Assembly: GCA_002254845.1 (NCBI GenBank)
Contig: NKPT01000031.1
Span: 1 to 40,744, forward strand
Length of the DNA stretch: 40,744 nucleotides
Reading direction: 5' to 3'
Source of the DNA: Chloracidobacterium sp. CP2_5A
Lineage (GTDB): Bacteria; Acidobacteriota; Blastocatellia; Chloracidobacteriales; Chloracidobacteriaceae
Shown here: piece after piece, positions 432-40,442 of the stretch
How positions within the stretch are numbered: position 1 is the stretch's first letter
Layout of the letters: the number at the start of each line of letters is the position of its first letter
Made by a program: the position numbers and the translations under genes
Notes under the pieces: generated by a model
The model's database searches: none
Seen by the model: only the letters and a program-made list of their open reading frames with translations
Told to the model about the DNA's origin: nothing

Positions 432-3400
432 ATGAACATCGGCGGGCTTCACAAGTCGCGTTGGCGAGTTCCGGTTGGGTGTCTACTCTGGCTTGGGGTC
501 TGCTCGCTTTTTGCAGCGCAGGGGCAGTCGCCGTCGTTCCAGAAGCCGCCGTCGCCGTCCAAGGCGATGCCCGGCAACCAGCGCCTGGAGGCGGCGACCG
601 TCCAGTCGCGCATCGCGTTTCTGCCTGGCTCGCGCATCTTCACCGACGACGACGGTCTGCCGCAGAACTCCGTGATGACCATGACGACCGACGCGGACGG
701 CTACCTCTGGGTCGGCACGCAGGACGGCGCGGCGCGCTATGACGGCTATCAGTGGCAACGATTTAACATGCCCAGCGAAAGCAGCTCGAATTGGGTGCGA
801 GCGTTGCTCCTGGCTCGCGATGGTCGGCTCTGGTTTGGCACGGACGCGGGTGGGGTTTTCCTTCGGCAAGGGAGCCGCTTTTCCCAGCACTATCACGCTG
901 GCCAGGCTGGCTTCCCCCACAACACGGTGACCGCCCTAGCTGAAGCGCTGGACGCTCAAGGTCGTCCGACGATTTGGGCGGGCACGCTTGGCGGGCTGGC
1001 GCGCCTTGATGGCGAGCGGTGGCGAACCTTCAATCAAGTCAACGCCGGCTTGCCCAGCGATCGCTTGCGCGCCCTCCTGGCCTCGGAGCGCGATGGACGA
1101 CCGTTGCTGTGGGTAGCGACGGAAGCGGGGCTGGTCGAATGGCAAGACGATCGGGTGCAGCGCGTTCACTCGGTCGCCACTGGGCTTCCGTTCAATGATA
1201 TTCGGGCGCTGGCCGAGACGCGCTCCCCCGATGGCGCTTCCGCTTTGTGGGTTGGCTTCACTAAAGGCGGCGTCGCCGCCTACCGTGCTGGCAAGTGGGA
1301 GCTAGTCCGCGAAGACTTCAACGGCACAAGTCAAATCCGCAGCCTGACGGCGACTTATGCATCCGATGGGAAGTGGACGCTCTGGGTCGGCACAAATGGC
1401 GGCGGCTTGGCCGCCTATCACGAGGGCGAATGGACCCTCTACAACGTTGACTCAAAGCTCATTCCCAATAGCGAAGTCTTATCGCTGCTTGAAACGCGCC
1501 AGGGCAATGGGCCGCCGCTGCTGTGGGTCGGCACGAACGGCGGCGGCCTGGCGCGGCTGCGTCTTGGCGCGTGGCATCGCGCCCAGCTCATTCCCGACGT
1601 GATTTCCACGGCGGGGGTCAAGGCGCTGCTTGAGTACGCCGAGCCGGACGGCTCGCGCGCGTTTTGGATCGGGACGCGCAACCACGGCGCAGTTTGTCTG
1701 CGACGCGGTCGGTGGGAAGTTTTTCAGCCTGAAAACAGCCGCCTGCCGAGCCGGTTCGTGTCCTGTCTGGCCAAAACTGATCGCGCGTCAAACGGCCCGG
1801 CCATCTGGCTCGGGACGGCGACCGGCGGCCTCGTCCGCATACAAAACGGGCAGTGGACGATTTTCAACTGCGACAACAGCGCGCTGCCCGATAACGGCAT
1901 CTGGAGCATGCTTGAAACCGAGGACGCCGCCGGCCGTCCTCAGCTGTTGATTGGCACGGAACGAGGCGTCGCCGTCTGGCGGGATGGCAAGCTGAGTCAG
2001 CTTGAGGACAGCGCGCGCTTGCCCAACCCCTATGTGACGGCGCTTCTGGCGACAGATGAGCCGGCCGGCGGCAAGCGGCTTTGGTTCGGCACGTTCGGCG
2101 GCGGACTCGCCAGTCTGTATCGCGGTCAGTGGACGATCTTTGACCGCGCCAACGGCGCGTTGCCCAGCGATGTCGTGCGCTCGCTGCAAATCCTGGAGCG
2201 CGACGGCGAGCGAACGCTCTGGGTCGGCACGTACGGCGGCGTCGCCATCGGTAACCTGCAGGGCGACAGCCTGACTTGGCAGGCGCTGCACGACGACACC
2301 GATCCGGCGCTGCCAAACAATACCGTTTATGAAGTTCGTCATGACCGCCAAGGGCGGGCGTATCTGTTTACCAACCGGGGCGTCGCGCGCTTAACGCGAA
2401 GCCCGCTCCATGGCTGGCGGCATCCAACGGTCGAGACCTTTACCACTGAAGACGGTCTCTCCAGCAACGAGTGCAACGGCGGGGCGGCGCTGCGCGACGC
2501 CGAGGGGCGTCTCTGGATTGGCACCGTTAGCGGGCTTGCCATGTTTGACGAGCGTCGCGAGGTCGTCGCGCAGGCGATCGCGCCCCCGCGCCTGATACGC
2601 GCCTTGATCAAGGGGCGGGAAGGCGCGATCGACAAGCCGCTGACCCTGACCTACGACCAGAACGAAATTGCCTTCGAGTATGAGCTGCCAGGCTTCTTTC
2701 GGTGCGCCGAAACGCAATACTCCTCGCAGCTCATCGGCTATGAGGCCGAGCCGACGCCCTGGGTGAGCGACCGCCGGCGCGCTTTTGCCAGCCTTCCGCC
2801 TGGCGCCTACGCCTTTCGCCTGCGGGCGCGCGATTATCTTGGGCGGGTTCAGGAAATAACGACGGCCAGCTTCGTCATTCGCTCTCCCTGGTGGGCAAGC
2901 TGGTGGGCATTCACGCTGTACGCCCTGCTGTTCATTGGGATTGGCTTTGGGTCCATGCAGTGGCGGCTCTACCTGCTGCGCAGGCGAACGCTGGAGCTGG
3001 AAGCCAAGGTCGCCGAGCGCACGGCCGCGCTGGCAAGCCTCAACCGCGATCTGGCTGAGAAAAATGAGAAACTGTCAGCTTTCAACAGCGACTTGGCGCG
3101 CAAGAATGCAGAGCTGGCTGAGGCGCAGCGTCGGACCGACCTGGTGTTTAGCGCCCTGGCGAAAGCGCTCCCCGGCACCGTTCTCGATGGAAGGTATCAG
3201 TTGGATGTCAAAATTGGCGCCGGCGGCTTCGGCGTGGTGTATGAAGCCACGCAGTTGGCGCTCAACCGCCGGGTCGCCGTCAAGGTTTTCCGTCCGGCGG
3301 CTGGGAATGACTCGCCGCGCGCGCTGGAACGCTTTCGGCAGGAGGGGCTCTCCGCCTGCCGAGTGAGCCATCCAAACGCCGTGGCGATTCTGGATTCCGG

Positions 3401-4112
3401 CGTTTCCTCCGACGGCATCGCGTACATCGTCATGGAGCTTCTCCAAGGCTACACTTTGGCGGATGAGCTACGGCGGTATGGCGCGCTCGCGCCGGCGCGC
3501 TGCGCGGAAATTATCATTCCCGTGCTGGGCGCGCTCGACGCAGCCCACAGCGAAGGCGTGATTCACCGCGACATCAAGCCCGACAATATCTTCCTGCACC
3601 AGACAAAGGATGGAGAGATTGTCAAGGTCGTGGATTTTGGGGTGGCCAAGCTGATGGGCGAAAACACGCTCAGCGACCAAACCAACAGCGCGTTGGGCGT
3701 GGTGGTTGGAACAGCCGCCTATCTCGCGCCAGAGCGCATCAACCACTTGGACTACGATGGGAAATCGGATGTGTATGCCGTGGGCGTGACGCTATACCAG
3801 ATGCTCACGGGCACGCTTCCCTTCGCTAGCTCGAGCGGCTTCGTGGGCGTCGCCCTTCAGCACCTGACGCTACGCCCCAAGCCGGTTCGCGAAGTGGCGC
3901 CCGACGTGCCGCCGGCGCTCAGTGACTTGGTTGCGCGGACGCTTGAAAAGAACCCGGCGCTGCGCCCGACAGCGCGCGAGCTGGCTGTGGCGCTGAGCGC
4001 CTATCTCGCGCAGCCGGCGTCAATCGACAGCCGCGGCTTCCCGAAGGTTGCGCCAACCATAATCGGATCGGATGATGATCCCTTCAGCGCCCCGACGCTC
4101 ATTGGGCCATAG
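432..4112 (+). CDS. Transmembrane two-component-propeller/Y_Y_Y sensor fused to a Ser/Thr protein kinase
   Basis: The protein has 1226 aa from ATG 432; a GTG at 408 in the same frame would add eight residues. ATG 432 gives a clean signal peptide (basic KSRWR, then a hydrophobic core ending near AAQ). Residues ~55-720 carry 14 copies of a W(V/I/F)GTxxGG-type repeat, the number expected for two seven-bladed propellers. A Y_Y_Y-like beta domain follows, then one membrane helix (about 824-845, tryptophan-rich entry) and a coiled coil. The C-terminal Hanks-type kinase has a GAGGFG loop near 930, Lys951 in VAVK, HRDIKPDN with catalytic Asp1047, DFG at 1068 and APE. Topology implies an external sensor and a cytoplasmic kinase. 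This sensor half normally drives histidine kinases in hybrid regulators. The gene is followed by an overlapping histidine kinase gene. All catalytic residues are present; the ligand is unknown. Confidence 0.9.
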   Translation: MNIGGLHKSRWRVPVGCLLWLGVCSLFAAQGQSPSFQKPPSPSKAMPGNQRLEAATVQSRIAFLPGSRIFTDDDGLPQNSVMTMTTDADGYLWVGTQDGAARYDGYQWQRFNMPSESSSNWVRALLLARDGRLWFGTDAGGVFLRQGSRFSQHYHAGQAGFPHNTVTALAEALDAQGRPTIWAGTLGGLARLDGERWRTFNQVNAGLPSDRLRALLASERDGRPLLWVATEAGLVEWQDDRVQRVHSVATGLPFNDIRALAETRSPDGASALWVGFTKGGVAAYRAGKWELVREDFNGTSQIRSLTATYASDGKWTLWVGTNGGGLAAYHEGEWTLYNVDSKLIPNSEVLSLLETRQGNGPPLLWVGTNGGGLARLRLGAWHRAQLIPDVISTAGVKALLEYAEPDGSRAFWIGTRNHGAVCLRRGRWEVFQPENSRLPSRFVSCLAKTDRASNGPAIWLGTATGGLVRIQNGQWTIFNCDNSALPDNGIWSMLETEDAAGRPQLLIGTERGVAVWRDGKLSQLEDSARLPNPYVTALLATDEPAGGKRLWFGTFGGGLASLYRGQWTIFDRANGALPSDVVRSLQILERDGERTLWVGTYGGVAIGNLQGDSLTWQALHDDTDPALPNNTVYEVRHDRQGRAYLFTNRGVARLTRSPLHGWRHPTVETFTTEDGLSSNECNGGAALRDAEGRLWIGTVSGLAMFDERREVVAQAIAPPRLIRALIKGREGAIDKPLTLTYDQNEIAFEYELPGFFRCAETQYSSQLIGYEAEPTPWVSDRRRAFASLPPGAYAFRLRARDYLGRVQEITTASFVIRSPWWASWWAFTLYALLFIGIGFGSMQWRLYLLRRRTLELEAKVAERTAALASLNRDLAEKNEKLSAFNSDLARKNAELAEAQRRTDLVFSALAKALPGTVLDGRYQLDVKIGAGGFGVVYEATQLALNRRVAVKVFRPAAGNDSPRALERFRQEGLSACRVSHPNAVAILDSGVSSDGIAYIVMELLQGYTLADELRRYGALAPARCAEIIIPVLGALDAAHSEGVIHRDIKPDNIFLHQTKDGEIVKVVDFGVAKLMGENTLSDQTNSALGVVVGTAAYLAPERINHLDYDGKSDVYAVGVTLYQMLTGTLPFASSSGFVGVALQHLTLRPKPVREVAPDVPPALSDLVARTLEKNPALRPTARELAVALSAYLAQPASIDSRGFPKVAPTIIGSDDDPFSAPTLIGP

Positions 4113-5880
4113 CCTTGCCGCGCGCCATCGCGCCATCTTTCCGCCGCTCGGCTGGCGGCGGCCAGTGGCTGGGCGGGCGTTGACCGTGGCGCTTGTCGTC
4201 CTCCTGACTGGCGTGAGCCTCATCGGCTTGTGGGTGACTTACGCCCTCCGCGCCGCCTACGAGCGCGAGGCGCAATCCCGCGCCCAGGCCGAAGCGCGGT
4301 TGGCGGCGCGCGCGCTCGCTGATGCCATTATGGCGCAGGGAGAGCTGCCTTCGGCGATGTCGCCGGAGCGCCTCCCCGCGACGCTTCCAGCGGCGGCCGG
4401 CCTGTATGACCGCGCCGGACAGCGGCGAGCGATGATCTCGCGCCAGGACCCGGCGGGCGAGCTGTCGCTGCCGGAGCGGCTCGATCTGTCCGGGCTCGAC
4501 CAAGCAACCGACCTTTTCGCAAATGACCGCTGCGTGATTACCGCGCCGCTGCGGGACGCCGGCGGGGAGCGATTGGGGGCGCTTTACCTTGTCACTCATC
4601 ATCGCGGCGCGCGACTTTCGACGGTCGTGACGCGCCTCGTCTATGAGCTGCCGCTGTGGCTAGCCGTCGCGACAGCCGGGTTGTGGCTTGTGCACGCGCT
4701 CTTAGGGCCGGGACGAGCGTCCGCGCCGCCGCGCGGCGCGCGGGCCGCGCCAGTCGACTTTGTCATGGCGGGCTATCAGGAAGTGATCGACCGCTTGCAG
4801 TCCGCCGGGCGCGAGCTGGAGCGTCTGCGCAGCGACGCCGAAACGCGAGCCGTCGCTCAGGCGCAATTTAGCGACCGACTCATCGCTGGCATTCCCGACG
4901 CGCTGATCGTGGTGGCGTCCGACGGGAGCGTCGGCCTGGCCAACCTGGCGGCGCAGGATTTGTTTGGCCAGTCGCCGGGCGTTGCGTACCGGGTCTTTTT
5001 CGCGGATGCGCCGGCTTTGGCGGACTTGGTCGCCGCCAGCTTGGCGGATGGCGTCCCGCGGCGGAAAGCCGACATGGAGGCGGTTCTTGCCGGCCACCGC
5101 CGGACGCTCGATGCCAGCGTATCGCCCATTCCTGGCGCGGCGAGCGTGCTGTGCCTCGTGGCGAACATCACCGAGCTGGCGGCGCTGCGGGCGACAACGC
5201 GCGCCAAGGAAACGCTGGAAGGCGTGGGCGAGCTGGCGGCCGGCATTGCTCATGAGTTCAAGAATTCGTTGGCAACGATAGATGGCTACGCTCGCCTGTT
5301 GGCGCAGGACGCGCCCCAGTCGGACGCCGCGCTGGCGCTCCGCGAGGAAGCGCGCCGATTGACGCAGGTCGTGACCGATTTTCTGACGTTTGCGCGTCCG
5401 ACGCGCATCGCCTTCGCGCCGGTCAGCCTGGCTGAAATAGCGGCTGAGGCCGCGATTGCGCTGCGCGATCTGGCCGCGCAGCGGGGCGTGACGCTGCGCA
5501 TCGCGCAGGATTTGCCGACCGTCGCCGGCGACGCGGCGCTGTTGCGGCGGGCGTTGGAAAACTTGCTCCGCAACGCGATTGAGGCCATCCCGGAAAGCGC
5601 GCCGACGAAGCTGGTCTCGCTGCGGGCTGAGACGGACGCGGGGGAGGCGACGCTGATGGTCGAGGATTCGGGCGGCGGGCTGCCGCCGGAGGTGGCCGCG
5701 AACTTGTTCGCGCCTTTCTTCACCACGAAAAAAGAGGGCCACGGCCTGGGTCTGGCTATTGTTCGGAAAATCGTCGTCAGTCACAATGGGCGCATTGAAG
5801 CTTGTAACTTGCCCGAAGGCGGCGCGCGGTTTCGCGTGTCGCTGCCTTTGCAAACGCCTTCTGAAACGCGAGGTCTATGA
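4072..5880 (+). CDS. Membrane sensor histidine kinase (NtrB/AtoS-like)
   Basis: The protein has 602 aa from ATG 4072, which overlaps the preceding kinase gene by 41 bases. A GTG at 4165 would remove the overlap and begin just before the first membrane helix, so the start is uncertain. Layout: membrane helix (~38-61), an extracytoplasmic segment of about 130 residues, a second helix (~189-212), a linker coiled coil, a PAS-like region (~264-370), a HisKA box with phospho-acceptor His394 (AHEFKNSLATI), and a complete HATPase domain with N-box Asn501, DSGGGLPP and the GHGLGLAIV box. The box types match the NtrB/AtoS class that partners sigma54-type regulators. A regulator of that class lies two genes downstream, so a cognate pair is likely. 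The position directly behind the Ser/Thr kinase suggests joint transcription. Confidence 0.9.
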   Translation: MMIPSAPRRSLGHSLAARHRAIFPPLGWRRPVAGRALTVALVVLLTGVSLIGLWVTYALRAAYEREAQSRAQAEARLAARALADAIMAQGELPSAMSPERLPATLPAAAGLYDRAGQRRAMISRQDPAGELSLPERLDLSGLDQATDLFANDRCVITAPLRDAGGERLGALYLVTHHRGARLSTVVTRLVYELPLWLAVATAGLWLVHALLGPGRASAPPRGARAAPVDFVMAGYQEVIDRLQSAGRELERLRSDAETRAVAQAQFSDRLIAGIPDALIVVASDGSVGLANLAAQDLFGQSPGVAYRVFFADAPALADLVAASLADGVPRRKADMEAVLAGHRRTLDASVSPIPGAASVLCLVANITELAALRATTRAKETLEGVGELAAGIAHEFKNSLATIDGYARLLAQDAPQSDAALALREEARRLTQVVTDFLTFARPTRIAFAPVSLAEIAAEAAIALRDLAAQRGVTLRIAQDLPTVAGDAALLRRALENLLRNAIEAIPESAPTKLVSLRAETDAGEATLMVEDSGGGLPPEVAANLFAPFFTTKKEGHGLGLAIVRKIVVSHNGRIEACNLPEGGARFRVSLPLQTPSETRGL

Positions 5881-5883
5881 GCG

Positions 5884-6405
5884 ATGAGCTTGGTCTTGAG
5901 CCTGTATCTGGTTGGGGGGCTTGGCAGTTTCGTCGGCAAGCCCGCGGCGGCCGGCGCGCCGCTCGCCGTGTCCTGGTCTTCACAAGCCGGCAAGAAAAAG
6001 CCAAGGCGGTCGCCGCGCCGCGCCGCGCCCGCCCCATCTTCCGCGCCGGATATGCCGTCGCTTGAGGATTTGCCGCTTGGCGCGCAGGACCTGCTGAAGG
6101 CAGGCCCGTCCAACTTGGACGCGCCGGGCAAGGCGTCGCCTGCCGCCGCTCCGCGTCGCGGCGCGGAGGAGGGAGGCTTGGAGGCCGAGGCCGCCCCTTC
6201 GCCGGAGGAAGAAGCTTGGCGACAGGCGCTTGAAGAAGCTCGCCGAGATCTGCGCGAGGCGGAGGCTGAAAAGCAGCGTCAGGAAAACGGCGAAACCCCA
6301 ACCCCAGTTGAACGGGACGTGATCCTGCGCATCGCGAAGGCGCGGGAAGCCATTCGGCGCTTGCTTGAGGAAGGTAAGGGCAAACAGTACCGCGAGCAGC
6401 CGTAA
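5884..6405 (+). CDS. Unrecognised Ala/Pro/Glu-rich protein between histidine kinase and regulator
   Basis: I do not recognise this 173-aa protein. It starts 3 bases after the histidine kinase stop and ends 17 bases before the regulator ATG, so it is very probably co-transcribed with them. The N-terminus is weakly hydrophobic (MSLVLSLYLVGGLGSF) and could be a short signal or anchor. A Lys/Arg-Pro-Ala-rich low-complexity stretch follows (about 35-105). The last ~65 residues are charged and predicted helical, with an EEARRDLREAEAEKQ coiled-coil-like run and an IAKAREAIRRLLEEG helix. There is no catalytic motif. By position it may be an accessory or adaptor protein of the two-component pair, but that is inference. 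Composition bias lowers certainty that the exact start is right. Confidence 0.65.
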   Translation: MSLVLSLYLVGGLGSFVGKPAAAGAPLAVSWSSQAGKKKPRRSPRRAAPAPSSAPDMPSLEDLPLGAQDLLKAGPSNLDAPGKASPAAAPRRGAEEGGLEAEAAPSPEEEAWRQALEEARRDLREAEAEKQRQENGETPTPVERDVILRIAKAREAIRRLLEEGKGKQYREQP

Positions 6406-6422
6406 GAGTCCTCAGCTTGGTC

Positions 6423-7631
6423 ATGACCGCCGGCGTTGCTGACATCCTGATTGTCGAGGACAAAGACGCGCTGCGCCAGATGTGGCGGCTCACGCTGGAG
6501 CGCGCGGGCTACGGCGTGAGCGAAGCCGCCGATCTCAAGCAGGCGCGGCAGGCTCTCCGGCGGCAGCCGCCAACGGTTGTCTTGACCGATCTGCGCCTGC
6601 CGGACGGCACAGGCCTCGACGTGTTGCGGGCCGCCAAAACGCTTAACCCGGATGTGCCGGTCGTCGTGCTGACCGCTTACGGCTCGATTGAGGAAGCTGT
6701 CGCCGCCATGAAAGACGGCGCGGAGGACTTTCTCCAGAAGCCGGTTGATCCGGATCACTTGTTGCTTGTTCTGGGGCGGCTTGCGGAGACGCATCGGCTG
6801 CGCCGCGAGCGCGTTCTGATGCGCGAGGAATACGCCCGGCGGTATGGCTTTCCGCGCATCATTGGCGATTCGCCCGCCATGCAGGACGTGGGGCGACAGC
6901 TTCAGCGCGTCGCGCCGACGGATACGACCGTTCTGCTGTTGGGCGAATCGGGCGTCGGCAAGGAGCTGTTCGCGCGCGCCATCCATCACCTGAGCGAGCG
7001 GCGGCAGGAAGCTTTCGTCGCCGTCAACTGCGCGGCGATTCCCGAAACGCTCATTGAAAACGAGCTGTTCGGTCACGAAAAAGGCGCGTTCACCGGCGCT
7101 GATGCCCGCCAAGTCGGCAAGTTTGAGCTGGCGCGCGGCGGGACGCTCTTTCTCGACGAAATCGGCGAGTTGCCGCTGGCGGCGCAATCGAAGCTTTTGC
7201 GCGCCTTGGAGGAGCGCGCTATCACGCGCATCGGCGGCGCGCAGGAAATCGGGGTCAACGTCCGCATCGTGGCCGCGACCAACCGCGATCTAGCGGCGGC
7301 GGTCGCCGCCAAGACGTTTCGGGAGGATTTGTTCTATCGGCTGGCGGTGTTTGCCATCGAGATTCCCCCGTTGCGCGAGCGGCGCGCGGACATTCCGGCG
7401 CTCGCGGCGCACTTTACCGAAAAGTACGGCCGCGAAATTCGTCGCCGGAAAATCGCCTTGTCGCCGGCAGCGCTTCAGGCGCTCCAGGCCTACGATTTTC
7501 CGGGCAACATCCGCGAGCTCGAAAACTGCATCGAGCGCGCCTGCATTCTCTGCGAAGGCGCAACGCTCGAACCCGAAGACCTGCGGCTGCCGACGCCTAC
7601 GCCGTCGTCGGGCCGTCGCCGTCGAAGTTGA
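6423..7631 (+). CDS. Response regulator of the sigma54-activator (NtrC/AtoC) class lacking a C-terminal HTH
   Basis: The protein has 402 aa from ATG 6423; a TTG at 6417 is possible. The receiver domain occupies residues ~6-120 with acidic pocket residues EDK and phospho-acceptor Asp56 in TDLRLPDG. A sigma54-interaction AAA+ domain follows (~140-370): Walker A GESGVGKE at 174, the GAFTGA loop at 221 that contacts sigma54, Walker B LFLDEIGELP, and the PGNIRELEN sensor region near 360. The protein then stops after a short Pro/Ser/Arg tail. The Fis-type helix-turn-helix of about 45 residues that normally closes this family is absent. Its 3' end overlaps the convergent folK gene by 35 bases. It should activate sigma54 promoters after phosphorylation, probably by the kinase at 4072, but cannot bind enhancer DNA in the usual way. 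Confidence 0.9.
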   Translation: MTAGVADILIVEDKDALRQMWRLTLERAGYGVSEAADLKQARQALRRQPPTVVLTDLRLPDGTGLDVLRAAKTLNPDVPVVVLTAYGSIEEAVAAMKDGAEDFLQKPVDPDHLLLVLGRLAETHRLRRERVLMREEYARRYGFPRIIGDSPAMQDVGRQLQRVAPTDTTVLLLGESGVGKELFARAIHHLSERRQEAFVAVNCAAIPETLIENELFGHEKGAFTGADARQVGKFELARGGTLFLDEIGELPLAAQSKLLRALEERAITRIGGAQEIGVNVRIVAATNRDLAAAVAAKTFREDLFYRLAVFAIEIPPLRERRADIPALAAHFTEKYGREIRRRKIALSPAALQALQAYDFPGNIRELENCIERACILCEGATLEPEDLRLPTPTPSSGRRRRS

Positions 7632-8145
7632 AACCGTTGTCTCCAACCCTGTAAACCAGGCTGTCGTCAGGGCATTCGGCCAGCAGCGCCGCGAACGTCC
7701 GCGCCAGGCGCGGATGTCGCGCGTCGGGAATCAGGTCGCACAGCGGCGTCAGAACAAATCGTCGCCGATGCAGGCGCGGATGAGGCAGCGTCAGCGCCGG
7801 ATCGTCGGACACGAGAAACGCTCCGGCCGCCGTCCGACACAGCAGCAGGTCCACATCAAGCGGACGCGCGCCCTTCGGCGTTATCCGTACGCGCCCGAAT
7901 TCGGCCTCGAGCGCCAGCCCGCGCGCCAGCATCGCCGCCGGCGTCAGGCGGATGGTCGCTTCAAGGACGGTGTTGAGAAACCACGGCTGCGCGAGGTAAT
8001 CCACCGGCGCGGTGGCATACCAAGCGGCGCAGCGCCACTCGGTCGCCTCGGCCGTCAGCCGCTCGATGGCGCGCGCCAGCAGGGCCGCGCGGTCGCCAAG
8101 GTTACTGCCCAAGCCGAGGTAAAAGGTGTGGAGCGCAGTCTTCAT
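7597..8145 (-). CDS. folK: 2-amino-4-hydroxy-6-hydroxymethyldihydropteridine pyrophosphokinase (HPPK)
   Basis: The 182-aa protein matches HPPK over its length. It has the N-terminal LGLGSNLGDR signature (residues ~10-19), the substrate-binding stretch YxTxPVDYLAQPWFLNTV, the conserved FGRVR and RPLDVDLLL block that carries the two magnesium-binding aspartates, and the LPHPRLHRRRFVLTPL motif. It transfers pyrophosphate from ATP to 6-hydroxymethyl-7,8-dihydropterin in cytoplasmic folate synthesis. The start is ATG at 8145. The C-terminal ~20 residues extend past the family core and are read from DNA that also encodes the end of the convergent response regulator. No other folate gene is nearby. 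Confidence 0.93.
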   Translation of the reverse strand: MKTALHTFYLGLGSNLGDRAALLARAIERLTAEATEWRCAAWYATAPVDYLAQPWFLNTVLEATIRLTPAAMLARGLALEAEFGRVRITPKGARPLDVDLLLCRTAAGAFLVSDDPALTLPHPRLHRRRFVLTPLCDLIPDARHPRLARTFAALLAECPDDSLVYRVGDNGFNFDGDGPTTA

Positions 8146-8238
8146 ACGCCAAACCGACTTGCTTCAAGCCGTCGCCGCATGCGATGGAGAGGCGCGCGCC
8201 TTGAGCGGCGATCGTCTTTGGAGTTCTTGCGCTGAGCC

Positions 8239-20902: not shown

Positions 20903-23900
20903 TTACGGGGCGCCCAGGACAATGACTAGCCCCCACCGCGCCGGATGCTGGGTCAGGCATTCGCGCTGGGCGGCTTGCAGCGCCTTCGCCGGGCTTGCTC
21001 CCGCCTGATGCGCGGCATGAAACGCGCACATTAAGTCGCGCATGGCGCGATCTTCCACCCGCGCTAGCGTGGCGACCACGGTTGCGGCGCCCGCCGCCAG
21101 AAAGGCCTGCGCCAGCCCGGTCATGCCCTCGCCCCGCAGCGGGCGCCCGAGGGCGGATTCGCAGGCCGAAAGCGCGACCAGTCGCAGGCGCGGGAAGGTT
21201 TGCTCATACACTTCCGCCGCCGTGAGGCGGCCGTCGTCTTCATCGGCGGCGGTCAGGTACAGCGCCGACCGCAGCGGCTCGTCCGGCTCGGCCACGCCGT
21301 GAACGGCCAGGTGCGCGATGCCGGCCGTCCGAAGGGCGGCGAGCGTCTGGCGCTTGGCGGCTCCGTCTCCGGCGAGCGCGCGAGCCGGCCCCAGAATGGA
21401 CTGCAGGCAGGCGATTTCGTCCCGCGCGCCGGTTAGCGGCGGCAGGGCGTCCGCGGCGGCGGGCGAAAGTCGGGCATCGGCCACAATCAGCGTTTCAGCG
21501 TCAGCGTCCGGCGGGCGGGCTTCAAGCGCTCGGATCAGCGCCGTGACGCTCGGACAAATCGAGAAGGGAACTCGTTCCGCGAGCCAGCGACCCTGCGGGT
21601 CGCGCAGCGTCGCCCATGGGAGCCCATGCAGGCTGTCGTCGGGGATGATGACCAGGCGTCCGACATCTTCGAGGGAAAGCGCCAGCGGCGACAGGAGCGA
21701 GGCGTAGAGTTCCTGTCCCGCCTGCCGCGCTTGCGCGACATCGCCGGATGAATTGGTCAGCGCCTGCGTCAGAGCTTGGACCTGAGCGGCAAGTCGCTCG
21801 CGCCCGATAGGCAGCGTTTGATGGCGGAGACGTTGCCGATCAAGCGTGAAGACTTCAGTCTGATGGTCGCCGACGGCATAGGCGACCGCCGCGATGTCAT
21901 CCGGCAGTCGCCGCTGCAAAGCGCGCGGCGACAGGTTGCCGCTCCCCGACTTGCCTGAAGCTTGGCGTCGGTCGAGGAGGGTTCGGGCGCGGGCGCGCTC
22001 AAGCCAAGCCAAGGCGATGTCCGGCTGCCCGCGCTGCGCGTGAATGCGAGCCAGTCGCTCGTAGAGATCGGCGTGCCGGTGGAAAAAACGCTGACGATCC
22101 GGCGTCTTGGTTATCCGTCCGCGGGCGGTCTCCATCCAGTCAATGCCTGCGCGGAGCGCGGCTTCGGCGGCGCGGTCATCGCCCAGCGCCAAATAAGCCG
22201 CGCCTCGAACCGATTGCGTCAGCGGCCAGTAGGCGTCATGTCGCCCGCGGCGCAGGCTTTCAGCGGCGCGGGCGCAGAGCCGGAGCGCGGCGGCCGGATC
22301 GCCCAGCGCCATTCGGCACCAGGCCGCCGTCGGCAGGAAGTCCAGCGCTAGAACGTCCCGCGCGCGGGCGTCCGCGACGCCGGCCAGGACGGCGGCGGCC
22401 CGATCAAGCGCCGCGTCGGCTTCCGCGAAGCGACCTGTCTTGACAAACAGCGTGGCCAACAAGGTTTCGGCGTCAAGCTGGAAGGCTGGGAACGCTTGCC
22501 CGACGGCAGCGGCGCGGGCTTCCTCGGCAAAGGCGAGGCCTAGCTCGCAGGCCCCAGCGGCGGCGCAGGTTCGGGCGGCGAAGGCGCAGGCCTGCGCTCG
22601 CCGGCGCGGATTCGTCCCCTGCTGCGCGCCGATATCCAGCAACTCGCGCAGCGAGCGGAGCGCCGCCGCGCTGTCGCCCTGACGCTCGTAAGCGTCGCTG
22701 AGAATGAGAAGCGACCGCTGGGTTTCTTCCCAGTCTGAAAGCGATGCAAACCGCGTCAGCGAGGCTTGCGCCAGCGCGACCGCCGCCGGCGCGTCGGACT
22801 GCCGGAGGGCCAGTTGCGCCCGGACGCGCAGCGCCTGCCCCTCCAGGCGGACGTAGCCCCGTTGACGGGCCTCTGCCAAGAGGGCCGAGCTGAGGCGGTC
22901 AAGCTGCAATGTTTCAGTCCGCTGAACCGCGCAATAGACCAAGCCCAGCTCCGCTTCTAGCGCGCTTGCTGAGTCGCCCAAGGCGAGAAACGCCCGGCGG
23001 GCCTGGGCGTAGAGCGGCTCTGCCGCCGTCGGCTTGCCCTCGATCGGATAAAGTTGACGCGCCGCGCGGAAGGCGCGGCGGGCCGCCAGCCAATCGCTCG
23101 CTCCGCCGCTGGCTTGGATGCCGGCGAGCGCCTGCGCCAGATCGCTCCCCCAGCGCTCATTCGCTCGCTTCCGCGCCGCGTCGGCAACGCGCTGAACCTG
23201 TGCCAAGCGCTGCTCGTCGCCCGAAGTCAGAAAAGCTTCGGCAGCCGCGCCCAGACCTTCGACGAGCCGCCCCAAGTGGCTTGCCAGGAAGGCTTCCGTT
23301 TCGGGCCCGTCAGGATGGTCGGCGCAATGAGCGAAGGCTTCCCAAAGACGGGCGGCATCGGGCGGCGACGGCGTCAGGGCGGACAAGTGTCGCTGCGCCG
23401 CTGTTGCCCAAGCCGCGCTCCGCTCGTCGGCGAGGTAGCGCGCCCACTCAGACTGGGCCTGCTCGGAAAGCCCAAGGCGCTGAAACAGCAGGGCGCGGTT
23501 AAAGCGGGCCGCCCCGGCGAAGTCGGCCTGGTTGAGCGCGCCAGCGAGGGCCTTCAGCGCCGCCTCGAAATCCTCCGGTTGCCCGTGGCGGAGCGCCCAT
23601 TCGGCATAGGCGATGCCCGCGTCGTTGAGCCAGTCCGTGGCGGCGCTCGGCGCGGCCGCGGCGAGGCGACGGCGAGCGGCGGTAATGTCTCCCGCAGCCA
23701 AGTCGCGCCAAAGCAGAATGTGGCGGCGTTGCGCCGCGTCGAGCGTCGGATCGTCAGCCGCCGCAGCTGTCAGCCCTGCGACGTGAGCGGCGTCAAGCGT
23801 GGCGGTCGCTCCGTCCGCTGGCGCTGGAGCCCCGGAGAGCCGAAAGCCCTGCGGCGAGGCGACCGGCAGTCGGCGAAGGCTGCCCCACGCCTCCGCTGAA

Positions 23901-24067
23901 CGGGCGGGCGCGGCGGTCGGCAGCCGCCCCTGGCAGGCCATCGTCAGCAGCGCCGCGCCAACCGCGAGCCACCGGCGCGCGCCTGCCGGGCGCTTCCGGT
24001 CGGCGCGGTGTTGCATCGGCGCGGCGGAACGTGCCAATACATGGCGGCGAGAGTCAATAAACGTCAT
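20903..24067 (-). CDS. CHAT-domain peptidase with tetratricopeptide region, probable lipoprotein
   Basis: The protein has 1054 aa from ATG 24067; ATG 24016 would shorten it by 17 residues and is equally plausible. A signal segment ([13 protein letters not shown]) ends in a cysteine that may be lipidated, although the lipobox is not classic. Residues ~110-650 are Ala/Leu-rich helical hairpins with TPR-like spacing. The last ~300 residues are a CHAT (caspase-like) domain with His923 in HLAVHGV and Cys969 in LSACESALG, the expected dyad, followed by [20 protein letters not shown] proteases are related to caspases and separases and occur in bacterial signalling and defence. No partner toxin or gasdermin-like gene is visible. 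Export makes a role in the envelope more likely; the target is unknown. Confidence 0.8.
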
Positions 24068-24106
24068 ATTCCGCGAGACTTTGCGAGGATGCTTCCAAAC
24101 TGGCTT

Positions 24107-24784
24107 ATGAAAGACGACTCGACGGTTACGAAAACGCCCGTTCTTGAATCGCTTGCAGCGCTCAGGCGCTGGGCGCGCATGATACTCCCGCTCGCGGCGG
24201 CTGGCACGGCGTTCGGCTGCGCGTCGCCGCCCGCCGCCCCGCCACCGGCCGCTCCGCCGCCGGCCGCCGCGACGCCAACGTCGGCGCCCGCGCCGGCGCA
24301 ACGACTTGTCGCCACGCTCGAAACGACCAAGGGGCGCATTCGCTTTGAGCTGCTGACTCAGGACGCGCCGAAGACATGTGAGAACTTTCGCCTGCTGGCG
24401 GAGCGGAAGTTCTACAATGGGCTAACGTTTCACCGGGTAATCAAGGGCTTTATGATTCAGGGCGGCGACCCGCGCGGCGACGGCACAGGCGGCGAGTCGG
24501 CCTTCGGCGGCGAGTTCGCCGATGAGATTGACCCCAAATCGCCGCTTTACCTGGCCGGGTATAAGGCTGGCATCGTCGCCATGGCCAACCGCGGCCCAAA
24601 CACGAACAGCAGTCAGTTTTTCATCATGCACCGCGATTACCAGCTCCCGCCGTCCTACACCATTTTTGGGCGCGTTTTCGAGGGGCAGGAAGTCGTGGAC
24701 GCGATTGCCGAAACGCCAACCGCTCCCGGCGACCGCCCGTTGACGCCGGTGCGCATTATTTCCGCCAAGGTTGGCGAGCCGTGA
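24107..24784 (+). CDS. Exported cyclophilin-type peptidyl-prolyl isomerase, probable lipoprotein
   Basis: The protein has 225 aa from ATG 24107; ATG 24089 and 24179 are also possible. A signal segment ([14 protein letters not shown]) ends at a cysteine suitable for lipidation, followed by a Pro/Ala-rich linker. The cyclophilin core is complete, with [14 protein letters not shown] (catalytic Arg and the Phe/Gln positions), [15 protein letters not shown] and [14 protein letters not shown]. It should catalyse cis-trans isomerisation of proline bonds in the periplasm. The gene is divergent from the CHAT gene, overlapping only in leader sequence, and is followed at 58 bases by a second cyclophilin. 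Confidence 0.88.
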
Positions 24785-40043: not shown

Positions 40044-40442
40044 ATGACGATTACCGAGCGCGCAAAAGACGGGATTGTAATTCTGGAGCTACAGGGCAGC
40101 GTTTTGCTAGGCAACGGCGACCTGGCGCTGCGCGAGCATATTTCGCGCTTGCTCGCCCGAGGCCTCCAGCGAATCATTCTGAACCTCGCTGGCGTGCCCT
40201 ATGTAGATAGCAGCGGTCTCGGCGAAATCGTGCGCGCCATGACCACGATCAAGCGCGCCGGCGGCAGCTTCAAGCTGGCCAGCCCAACCCGTCGCCTGGT
40301 CGATATTCTCAACATTACCAAGCTGTCGTCCATTCTCGAAACCTACGACACGGAAGACGCCGCTCTCGCGAGCTTCCAGTCGCCTTCCGCGGCCTCCTCA
40401 GCCGAGGAGCGCCAGCTAAGGAGCGCCGCCGAGCGCTCCTGA
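40044..40442 (+). CDS. STAS-domain anti-sigma factor antagonist
   Basis: The 132-aa protein has the SpoIIAA/RsbV-type STAS fold: ERAKDGIVILELQGSVLLG, an amphipathic helix, RIILNLAGVPYVDSSGLGEIV and the C-terminal LVDILNITKLSSIL helix. The second Ser of VDSSG (Ser57) is in the position phosphorylated by anti-sigma kinases. It probably frees a sigma factor by binding its anti-sigma kinase. No kinase or sigma gene is adjacent. The C-terminal ~20 residues are Ala/Ser-rich. Confidence 0.92.
   Translation: MTITERAKDGIVILELQGSVLLGNGDLALREHISRLLARGLQRIILNLAGVPYVDSSGLGEIVRAMTTIKRAGGSFKLASPTRRLVDILNITKLSSILETYDTEDAALASFQSPSAASSAEERQLRSAAERS

Follow-up and report, generated by a model that had tools for sequence, protein, structure and literature searches.

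A predicted receptor Ser/Thr kinase with a double-propeller sensor in Chloracidobacterium, and the outputs fused to the same type of sensor

What becomes of a sensor known from hybrid two-component systems (HTCS) when a Ser/Thr kinase stands in the place of the histidine kinase? The question is raised by a gene on contig NKPT01000031.1 of Chloracidobacterium sp. CP2_5A (assembly GCA_002254845.1, Acidobacteriota), whose positions 1 to 40,744 make up the stretch analysed here, called the window. This gene is a single uninterrupted open reading frame (ORF) on the forward strand, which starts at the ATG at 432 (the mechanical ORF opens at the GTG at 408), ends with the TAG at 4110 and encodes a protein of 1226 aa, P0001. 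A first-pass annotation, made from the letters of the window, had read it as a two-propeller/Y_Y_Y sensor of the hybrid two-component type joined in one gene to a complete Hanks-type kinase. This reading stands, and the layout is conserved in the genus and beyond.

Layout and structure model of the receptor

The receptor is divided as follows.

432..4112 (+), receptor Ser/Thr kinase, whole ORF, 1226 aa (open frame and translation; orthologues in 6/6 other genomes of the genus)
432..530 (+), predicted signal peptide, residues 1-33 (hydrophobic segment 11-33; putative cleavage site)
672..1616 (+), propeller 1, blades 1-7, residues 81-395 (strand pattern of the model, BT4663 match)
1617..2603 (+), propeller 2, blades 8-14, residues 396-724 (strand pattern of the model, BT4663 match)
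2604..2888 (+), Y_Y_Y-type beta-sandwich, residues 725-819 (strands of the model; BT4663 alignment up to model residue 793)
2901..2969 (+), predicted membrane helix, about residues 824-846, Trp-rich (model helix 798-836, that is residues 824-862)
2970..3158 (+), predicted signalling helix or coiled coil, about residues 847-909, starting with LELEAKVAERT (model helix 841-883)
3195..3983 (+), protein kinase domain, residues 922-1184, with K951, D1047, DFG and APE (Pfam, PknB fold, motif positions)

The Pfam search that the first-pass annotation had proposed as a check calls Reg_prop (E 1.9e-23) and Pkinase (residues 922-1184, E 9.4e-51) in P0001 and does not call Y_Y_Y. The Y_Y_Y-like domain announced by that annotation is nevertheless supported by the alignment with BT4663 and by Pfam matches over the cut-off in all three sister fusions of the same genome. 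The WxGT-type pattern occurs in 12 copies between residues 61 and 730, for a mean of 0.2 and a maximum of 3 in 2000 shuffled sequences. A hydropathy scan (cut-off 1.5) flags residues 11-33 and a stretch within the kinase (1017-1038).

An AlphaFold2 model was built from a 26-row alignment of fusions, with the chain begun at residue 27 (mean predicted local distance difference test, pLDDT, 81.4; predicted template modelling score, pTM, 0.63). It contains propellers, whose absence from a predicted structure the first-pass annotation had named as able to overturn its reading. They comprise 14 repeat units of 41-51 residues (residues 81-724), 13 of them four-stranded and the last one three-stranded; behind them come a beta-sandwich, two helices, the first of which is long, and then the kinase. 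The fourteen repeats counted earlier are therefore correct as a number of blades, 12 of which carry a WxGT-type motif (units 5 and 13 do not). The division into 7+7 blades follows the analogy with BT4663 and PorZ. A strand located ahead of unit 1 (at about residues 62-70) probably closes propeller 2 as the fourth strand of its last unit, by analogy with the closing strand described for PorZ (PMC5121618; the literature is cited from excerpts throughout).

Superpositions were run with VIA-align over the list of solved structures returned by Foldseek. BT4663 (4a2l_C) aligns with positions 38-793 of the receptor model (Z 36.3, root-mean-square deviation, rmsd, 4.0, 692 residues aligned), BT3049 (3v9f) reaches Z 34.0 and BT4673 (3va6, 3ott) Z 35, with an rmsd near 19. 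Foldseek alone places chains of BT4663 and BT3049 in its top eleven positions. The sequence matches of the sensor point to the same proteins (4a2l, E 1.4e-37; 3v9f, 4.3e-36; 3ott, 2.8e-17). Judged from sequence and model together, the sensor is a periplasmic double propeller with a Y_Y_Y sandwich, homologous to BT4663 and matching it in structure.

The catalytic residues of the kinase lie where they had been placed at first reading: Lys951, Asp1047 (within HRD), DFG from 1068 and APE from 1099. PknA and PknB are the best solved relatives of this domain by sequence, and PknB (5u94) superposes on it with Z 33.0 and rmsd 1.7 over 259 aligned residues. The Lys, HRD, DFG and PE motifs are kept in all 45 distinct kinase domains of propeller receptors; 6 of 34 propeller kinases have IAIK or IAVK instead of VAVK, with HRD and DFG intact. 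The identity with the six orthologues is 74-88% for the kinase and 68-81% for the propellers, and the kinase is the more conserved part in four of them. The receptor thus carries a complete Hanks-type kinase, PknA/PknB-like, with a predicted Ser/Thr activity.

Like BT4663 (4a2l/4a2m), BT3049 (3v9f) and BT4673 (3ott/3va6), the receptor has two periplasmic propellers and a Y_Y_Y-type sandwich before a membrane helix. Whereas these Bacteroides hybrid sensors end in a histidine kinase (with a receiver and a DNA-binding domain), P0001 ends in a Ser/Thr kinase. HisKA and HATPase_c give no Pfam match in it at E up to 1, and neither a receiver nor a DNA-binding domain was found by Pfam and NCBIfam scans. 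Because these parts are absent, the receptor is not an HTCS, although it has the double-propeller and Y_Y_Y sensor of one, according to the model and the BT4663 match. It has the catalytic motifs of Hanks-type receptor kinases and, as the model predicts, an extracytoplasmic sensor connected through one membrane helix. The PASTA kinases (PknB, Stk1, PrkC) have a similar kinase domain. Defined by PASTA repeats and an equivalog score, they do not include the receptor, which has no Pfam PASTA match and scores 288.8 bits against a cut-off of 450 with NCBIfam PknB_PASTA.

PknD has an N-terminal kinase and a C-terminal sensor. Like the receptor, PknD of Mycobacterium combines a Hanks-type kinase inside the cell with an extracytoplasmic propeller outside (PMC3601408), but this is a single six-bladed propeller, whereas P0001 has two seven-bladed ones with Y_Y_Y and places its sensor N-terminally and its kinase C-terminally. 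Sensors of the Reg_prop/Y_Y_Y kind are already known on varied outputs: on hybrid histidine kinases in Lysobacter (PMC8463545), on GGDEF domains in GdpX2 and GdpX3 of Xanthomonas (PMC6637768) and, for Y_Y_Y, on membrane transcription regulators (PMC10269533). GdpX2 and GdpX3 resemble the receptor in that a sensor of this kind stands before an output that is not a histidine kinase, but their output is cyclic-nucleotide synthesis. P0001 would work as a receptor Ser/Thr kinase of the sort of PknD, fitted with an HTCS-type sensor.

The fusion across genomes and the exchange of outputs

The region spanning the junction between sensor and kinase is found in 6/6 other genomes of the genus (75-85% identity, ORFs of 1186-1242 aa). 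Matches spanning the junction occur in 13 of the 14 genomes of the order, 59 in total (one of them ending in a truncated kinase), with 16 and 11 in two 8-Mb genomes. The earlier reading of a single odd protein was thus incomplete, P0001 being one case among these 59. In the first 100 loci fetched, 22 fusion ORFs are present, some of them ending at the edge of the locus. The nearest titled relatives of the receptor, among the best 80 of 551 kept, come from uncultured Chloracidobacterium (81%) and uncultured Blastocatellia (73%).

No junction-spanning fusion was found in the 64 sampled genomes of the class that lie outside the order (78-genome class sample, E 1e-35, up to 32 candidates scored); a sample of 297 genomes from the phylum, with eight candidates scored per genome, was not used to conclude on absence. 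One full fusion (L027) lies outside the order according to its record title, 'uncultured delta proteobacterium', a lineage that is unverified. A further candidate, from outside the order but within the phylum of CP2_5A (genome G240), was rejected: L200:1197-5054 is one ORF with HisKA, a receiver and a C-terminal Ser/Thr kinase, and has no propeller match. None of the 964 matching plasmid records covers 80% of the receptor protein; the plasmid matches include proteins annotated as diguanylate and adenylate cyclases. A search of open-licence PubMed Central found no paper on a propeller-Ser/Thr kinase fusion, a weak negative; the InterPro architectures may well list it. The excerpts of the Solibacter genome paper deal with many Ser/Thr kinases and do not contain the word propeller (PMC3174227).

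Two genomes of the same family as CP2_5A (G007 and G009, 8.3-8.4 Mb) contain, respectively, 77 and 57 sequence matches to the Y_Y_Y-membrane region; by this measure, receptors of this type have expanded greatly there. At locus L128 (G007, contig C132), the ORF of a propeller receptor stops within the kinase, which Pfam does not call, and the next ORF holds part of a propeller; the same contig also carries a full fusion nearby.

The same type of sensor is also fused to PP2C-type phosphatases, an output absent from the first-pass annotation. Besides P0001, the CP2_5A genome encodes three further propeller-Ser/Thr kinase fusions, which makes four kinases with this sensor type (C291, C134, C185, C30), in addition to five SpoIIE/PP2C phosphatases (three on C288, the others on C383 and C135) and three histidine kinases, two of HisKA type (C24, C260) and one of LytS type (C135). 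Thus, 9 of the 12 receptors would, provided that they are active, add or remove phosphate on Ser/Thr. The whole genome has 35 Pkinase matches over the cut-off and 19 SpoIIE matches. Two other propeller proteins of this genome are L201, which has no recognised output, and L145:1724-5908 (-) on C135, which has a carboxypeptidase-regulatory-like domain and weak C-terminal AAA matches.

One of the SpoIIE-type receptors, L142:2638-6153 (-) on C288, was modelled from a 15-row alignment and has the same layout as P0001. It shows 15 blade units by strand count, one more than P0001, perhaps split into 7+8. Its model superposes on BT4663 with Z 43.5 over 709 residues and on the PP2C domain of SiaA with Z 32.8 over 243, the output domain of the sister receptors matching the SiaA/SpoIIE/RsbU phosphatases. 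For SiaA itself, a double-propeller sensor is not known. The structures listed for the second propeller of L142 include Cake8, an eight-bladed designed protein.

Receptor ORFs were retained at a sensor score of at least 60 bits with at least three WxGT-type matches. The 95 that passed comprise 47 with a Ser/Thr kinase (one of them L128, with its truncated kinase), 30 with a histidine kinase, 14 with SpoIIE, two with LytS and two without output. Since a kinase receptor served as the query, kinase receptors are over-represented in this set; the fifth SpoIIE receptor of the CP2_5A genome (L144) lies outside it and was added through Pfam. A maximum likelihood tree was computed for 93 rows (the two output-less ORFs omitted) from 176 columns that cover Y_Y_Y and the membrane region. 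It requires 22 changes between Ser/Thr kinase and other outputs, at least eight of them forced by well supported branches. Well supported mixed groups unite one Ser/Thr kinase receptor with two SpoIIE receptors, and one Ser/Thr kinase receptor with one histidine kinase receptor. Holding the 47 kinase-bearing sensors together costs 494 log-likelihood units, and their single clade is rejected (p-AU 3.84e-9); the outputs have therefore been exchanged repeatedly. In a tree of the kinase side, whose 95 rows are made up of 45 propeller kinases and the best 50 of 89 others, the propeller kinases do not form one group either (14 changes, seven forced; the bootstrap had not settled). A helix start of the form LExxVxxRT follows the membrane helix in 34/47 Ser/Thr kinase, 16/30 histidine kinase, 11/14 SpoIIE and 0/2 LytS-type receptors. 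Where this start is present, the exchange point, as read from the sequences, sits behind a helix common to unrelated outputs.

Gene neighbourhood

The receptor gene lies downstream of gatC (108-394, Pfam) and is followed on the same strand by three genes.

4072..5880 (+), histidine kinase with HisKA, HATPase_c and a PAS-like match below cut-off (Pfam; behind the receptor in 7/7 genus copies)
5884..6405 (+), small protein of 173 aa without any family over cut-off in library scans (kept in 7/7 genus copies)
6417..7631 (+), response regulator with a receiver (REC) and a sigma-54 AAA+ domain, NtrC-type, ending in RRRRS (Pfam; adjoining in 5/7 genus copies)

Of the 86 mechanical ORFs of at least 120 aa in the window, 28 were scanned. 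Those located farther away encode FolK, an M28 peptidase, a YpdA-like reductase, TruB, GyrB, a TPR-CHAT protein, an ABC transporter and proteins of type II/IV secretion or pili; several have no match. No SusC/SusD or glycan-degrading Pfam match was found among these 28, so the glycan or nutrient type of signal put forward by the first-pass annotation gains no support from the neighbourhood. The TPR-CHAT protein (1132 aa, 20903-24301, -; CHAT E 4.1e-57) is a candidate caspase-like peptidase. The ORF 7351-8235 (+), which has no family over cut-off, merely shadows the response regulator and folK on the opposite strand (HPPK, 7597-8145, -). A STAS-domain protein is encoded at 40044-40442 (+); STAS proteins are the kind of phosphoprotein on which SpoIIE/SiaA-type phosphatases act.

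A signalling model and its rivals

The favoured explanation, which seems to us somewhat better than an even bet, is that P0001 is a receptor Ser/Thr kinase that crosses the membrane once and is built on an exchangeable sensor. In it, a ligand-driven re-packing of the dimer would pair the kinases, and phosphatase receptors would oppose it. The signalling process could run as follows. The sensor would form a dimer, as reported for BT4663 and its kin (PMC5121618), and a ligand bound at the propellers (a disaccharide in the case of BT4663, according to the same paper) would close it by a scissor-like movement of the type reported for BT4663 (PMC8534201). On closure, the membrane helices and the coiled coil would re-pack, so that the two kinase domains pair and phosphorylate each other in trans, as reported for PknD, activated through dimerisation of its N-lobe, and for PknB (PMC3601408). 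Cytoplasmic proteins would be phosphorylated next, the targets being either local (the neighbouring histidine kinase and response regulator) or general. Receptor phosphatases built on the same kind of sensor would be the natural opposing arm, and in this lineage a large share of the sensor type would then have passed from His-Asp signalling to Ser/Thr phosphorylation that can be reversed.

A wider proposal can be made with less assurance, and we hold it tentatively: in the order around Chloracidobacterium, the double-propeller receptor may have been switched as a whole from His-Asp signalling to a reversible phosphorylation of Ser/Thr, kinase and PP2C receptors opposing each other on shared substrates and outputs being freely swapped at one constant position that follows the LExxVAERT helix.

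Several points weigh against these readings. At a pTM of 0.63, the placement of one domain against another is weak and the relative domain positions in the receptor model are unreliable; pLDDT falls below 50 at model residues 829-844, between the membrane helix and the coil, and the rmsd near 19 for 3ott and 3va6 implies that the mutual arrangement of the propellers varies. The Trp-rich stretch 820-846 is not flagged by the hydropathy scan, so that the one membrane helix of the earlier description is supported by the model and by its position in the chain. The sensor tree is based on 176 columns and 33 of its 90 inner branches are open, while the helix start, by the pattern used, is absent from 13/47 Ser/Thr kinase and 14/30 histidine kinase receptors. 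The kinase receptors (C291, C134, C185, C30) and the phosphatase receptors (C288, C383, C135) are on different contigs, and substrates common to both are a conjecture. That the receptor is active, dimerises, binds a ligand and phosphorylates substrates is a prediction from sequence, model and analogy.

The alternative closest to the genes at hand is that the products of its own operon are the main targets of the receptor, whose kinase would tune the adjacent histidine kinase and the sigma-54 response regulator in a three-tier local pathway. The histidine kinase gene begins within the receptor gene (41 nt overlap), receptor, histidine kinase and small protein stay together in every genus copy, and the response regulator, in which Pfam found no DNA-binding domain, carries the basic-Ser tail RRRRS in 5/5 adjoining copies. 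This regulator does not, however, adjoin the cluster in 2/7 copies, and queries with the three neighbours gave no match (E 1e-4) around the three other fusions of the genome (L107-L109), which leaves this pathway a serious but unlikely competitor. A more doubtful proposal still makes the propellers an anchor or adhesion platform (to cell wall, lipopolysaccharide or a partner protein), with a kinase regulated from inside. It draws on PorZ, a related two-propeller protein that is a secretion component (PMC5121618) and whose profile matches P0001 at 635-712 below cut-off (60.1 of 260 bits), but the Y_Y_Y-type domain, membrane helix and signalling helix are arranged as in sensors, and the outputs joined to this sensor type include Ser/Thr kinases, phosphatases and histidine kinases of two types.

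That P0001 could be a pseudokinase serving as scaffold is very improbable, given the intact K951, HRD, DFG and APE, the motifs kept throughout the receptor kinases and a kinase conserved above the propellers in most orthologues; nothing that might support it was found, and in one other receptor (L128) the kinase is truncated. Hardly any credence at all is left for a chimeric assembly or for two separate genes run together, the error that the first-pass annotation had named as able to overturn it. The genome is indeed a draft (3.41 Mb in 385 contigs, 95% complete), but the fusion recurs in all six further genomes of the genus (three of these comprise two contigs each), in three additional genes of the CP2_5A genome itself and repeatedly among the loci fetched; this explanation was rejected.

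Under the favoured explanation of a receptor kinase with an exchangeable sensor, these proteins are natural chimeras: histidine kinases, Ser/Thr kinases and Ser/Thr phosphatases all carry one kind of periplasmic sensor. If the wider proposal is true, the Ser/Thr kinase and PP2C receptors would be opposing arms built on one sensor and one helix. If the signalling helix serves all three outputs, a single mechanical signal would drive unrelated enzymes, and the models of transmembrane signalling (scissor, rotation, dimer pairing) would become directly comparable. The bacterial receptor Ser/Thr kinases, for which the mechanism of ligand action is mostly unsettled, would gain a sensor that has a solved homologue whose class of ligand is known.

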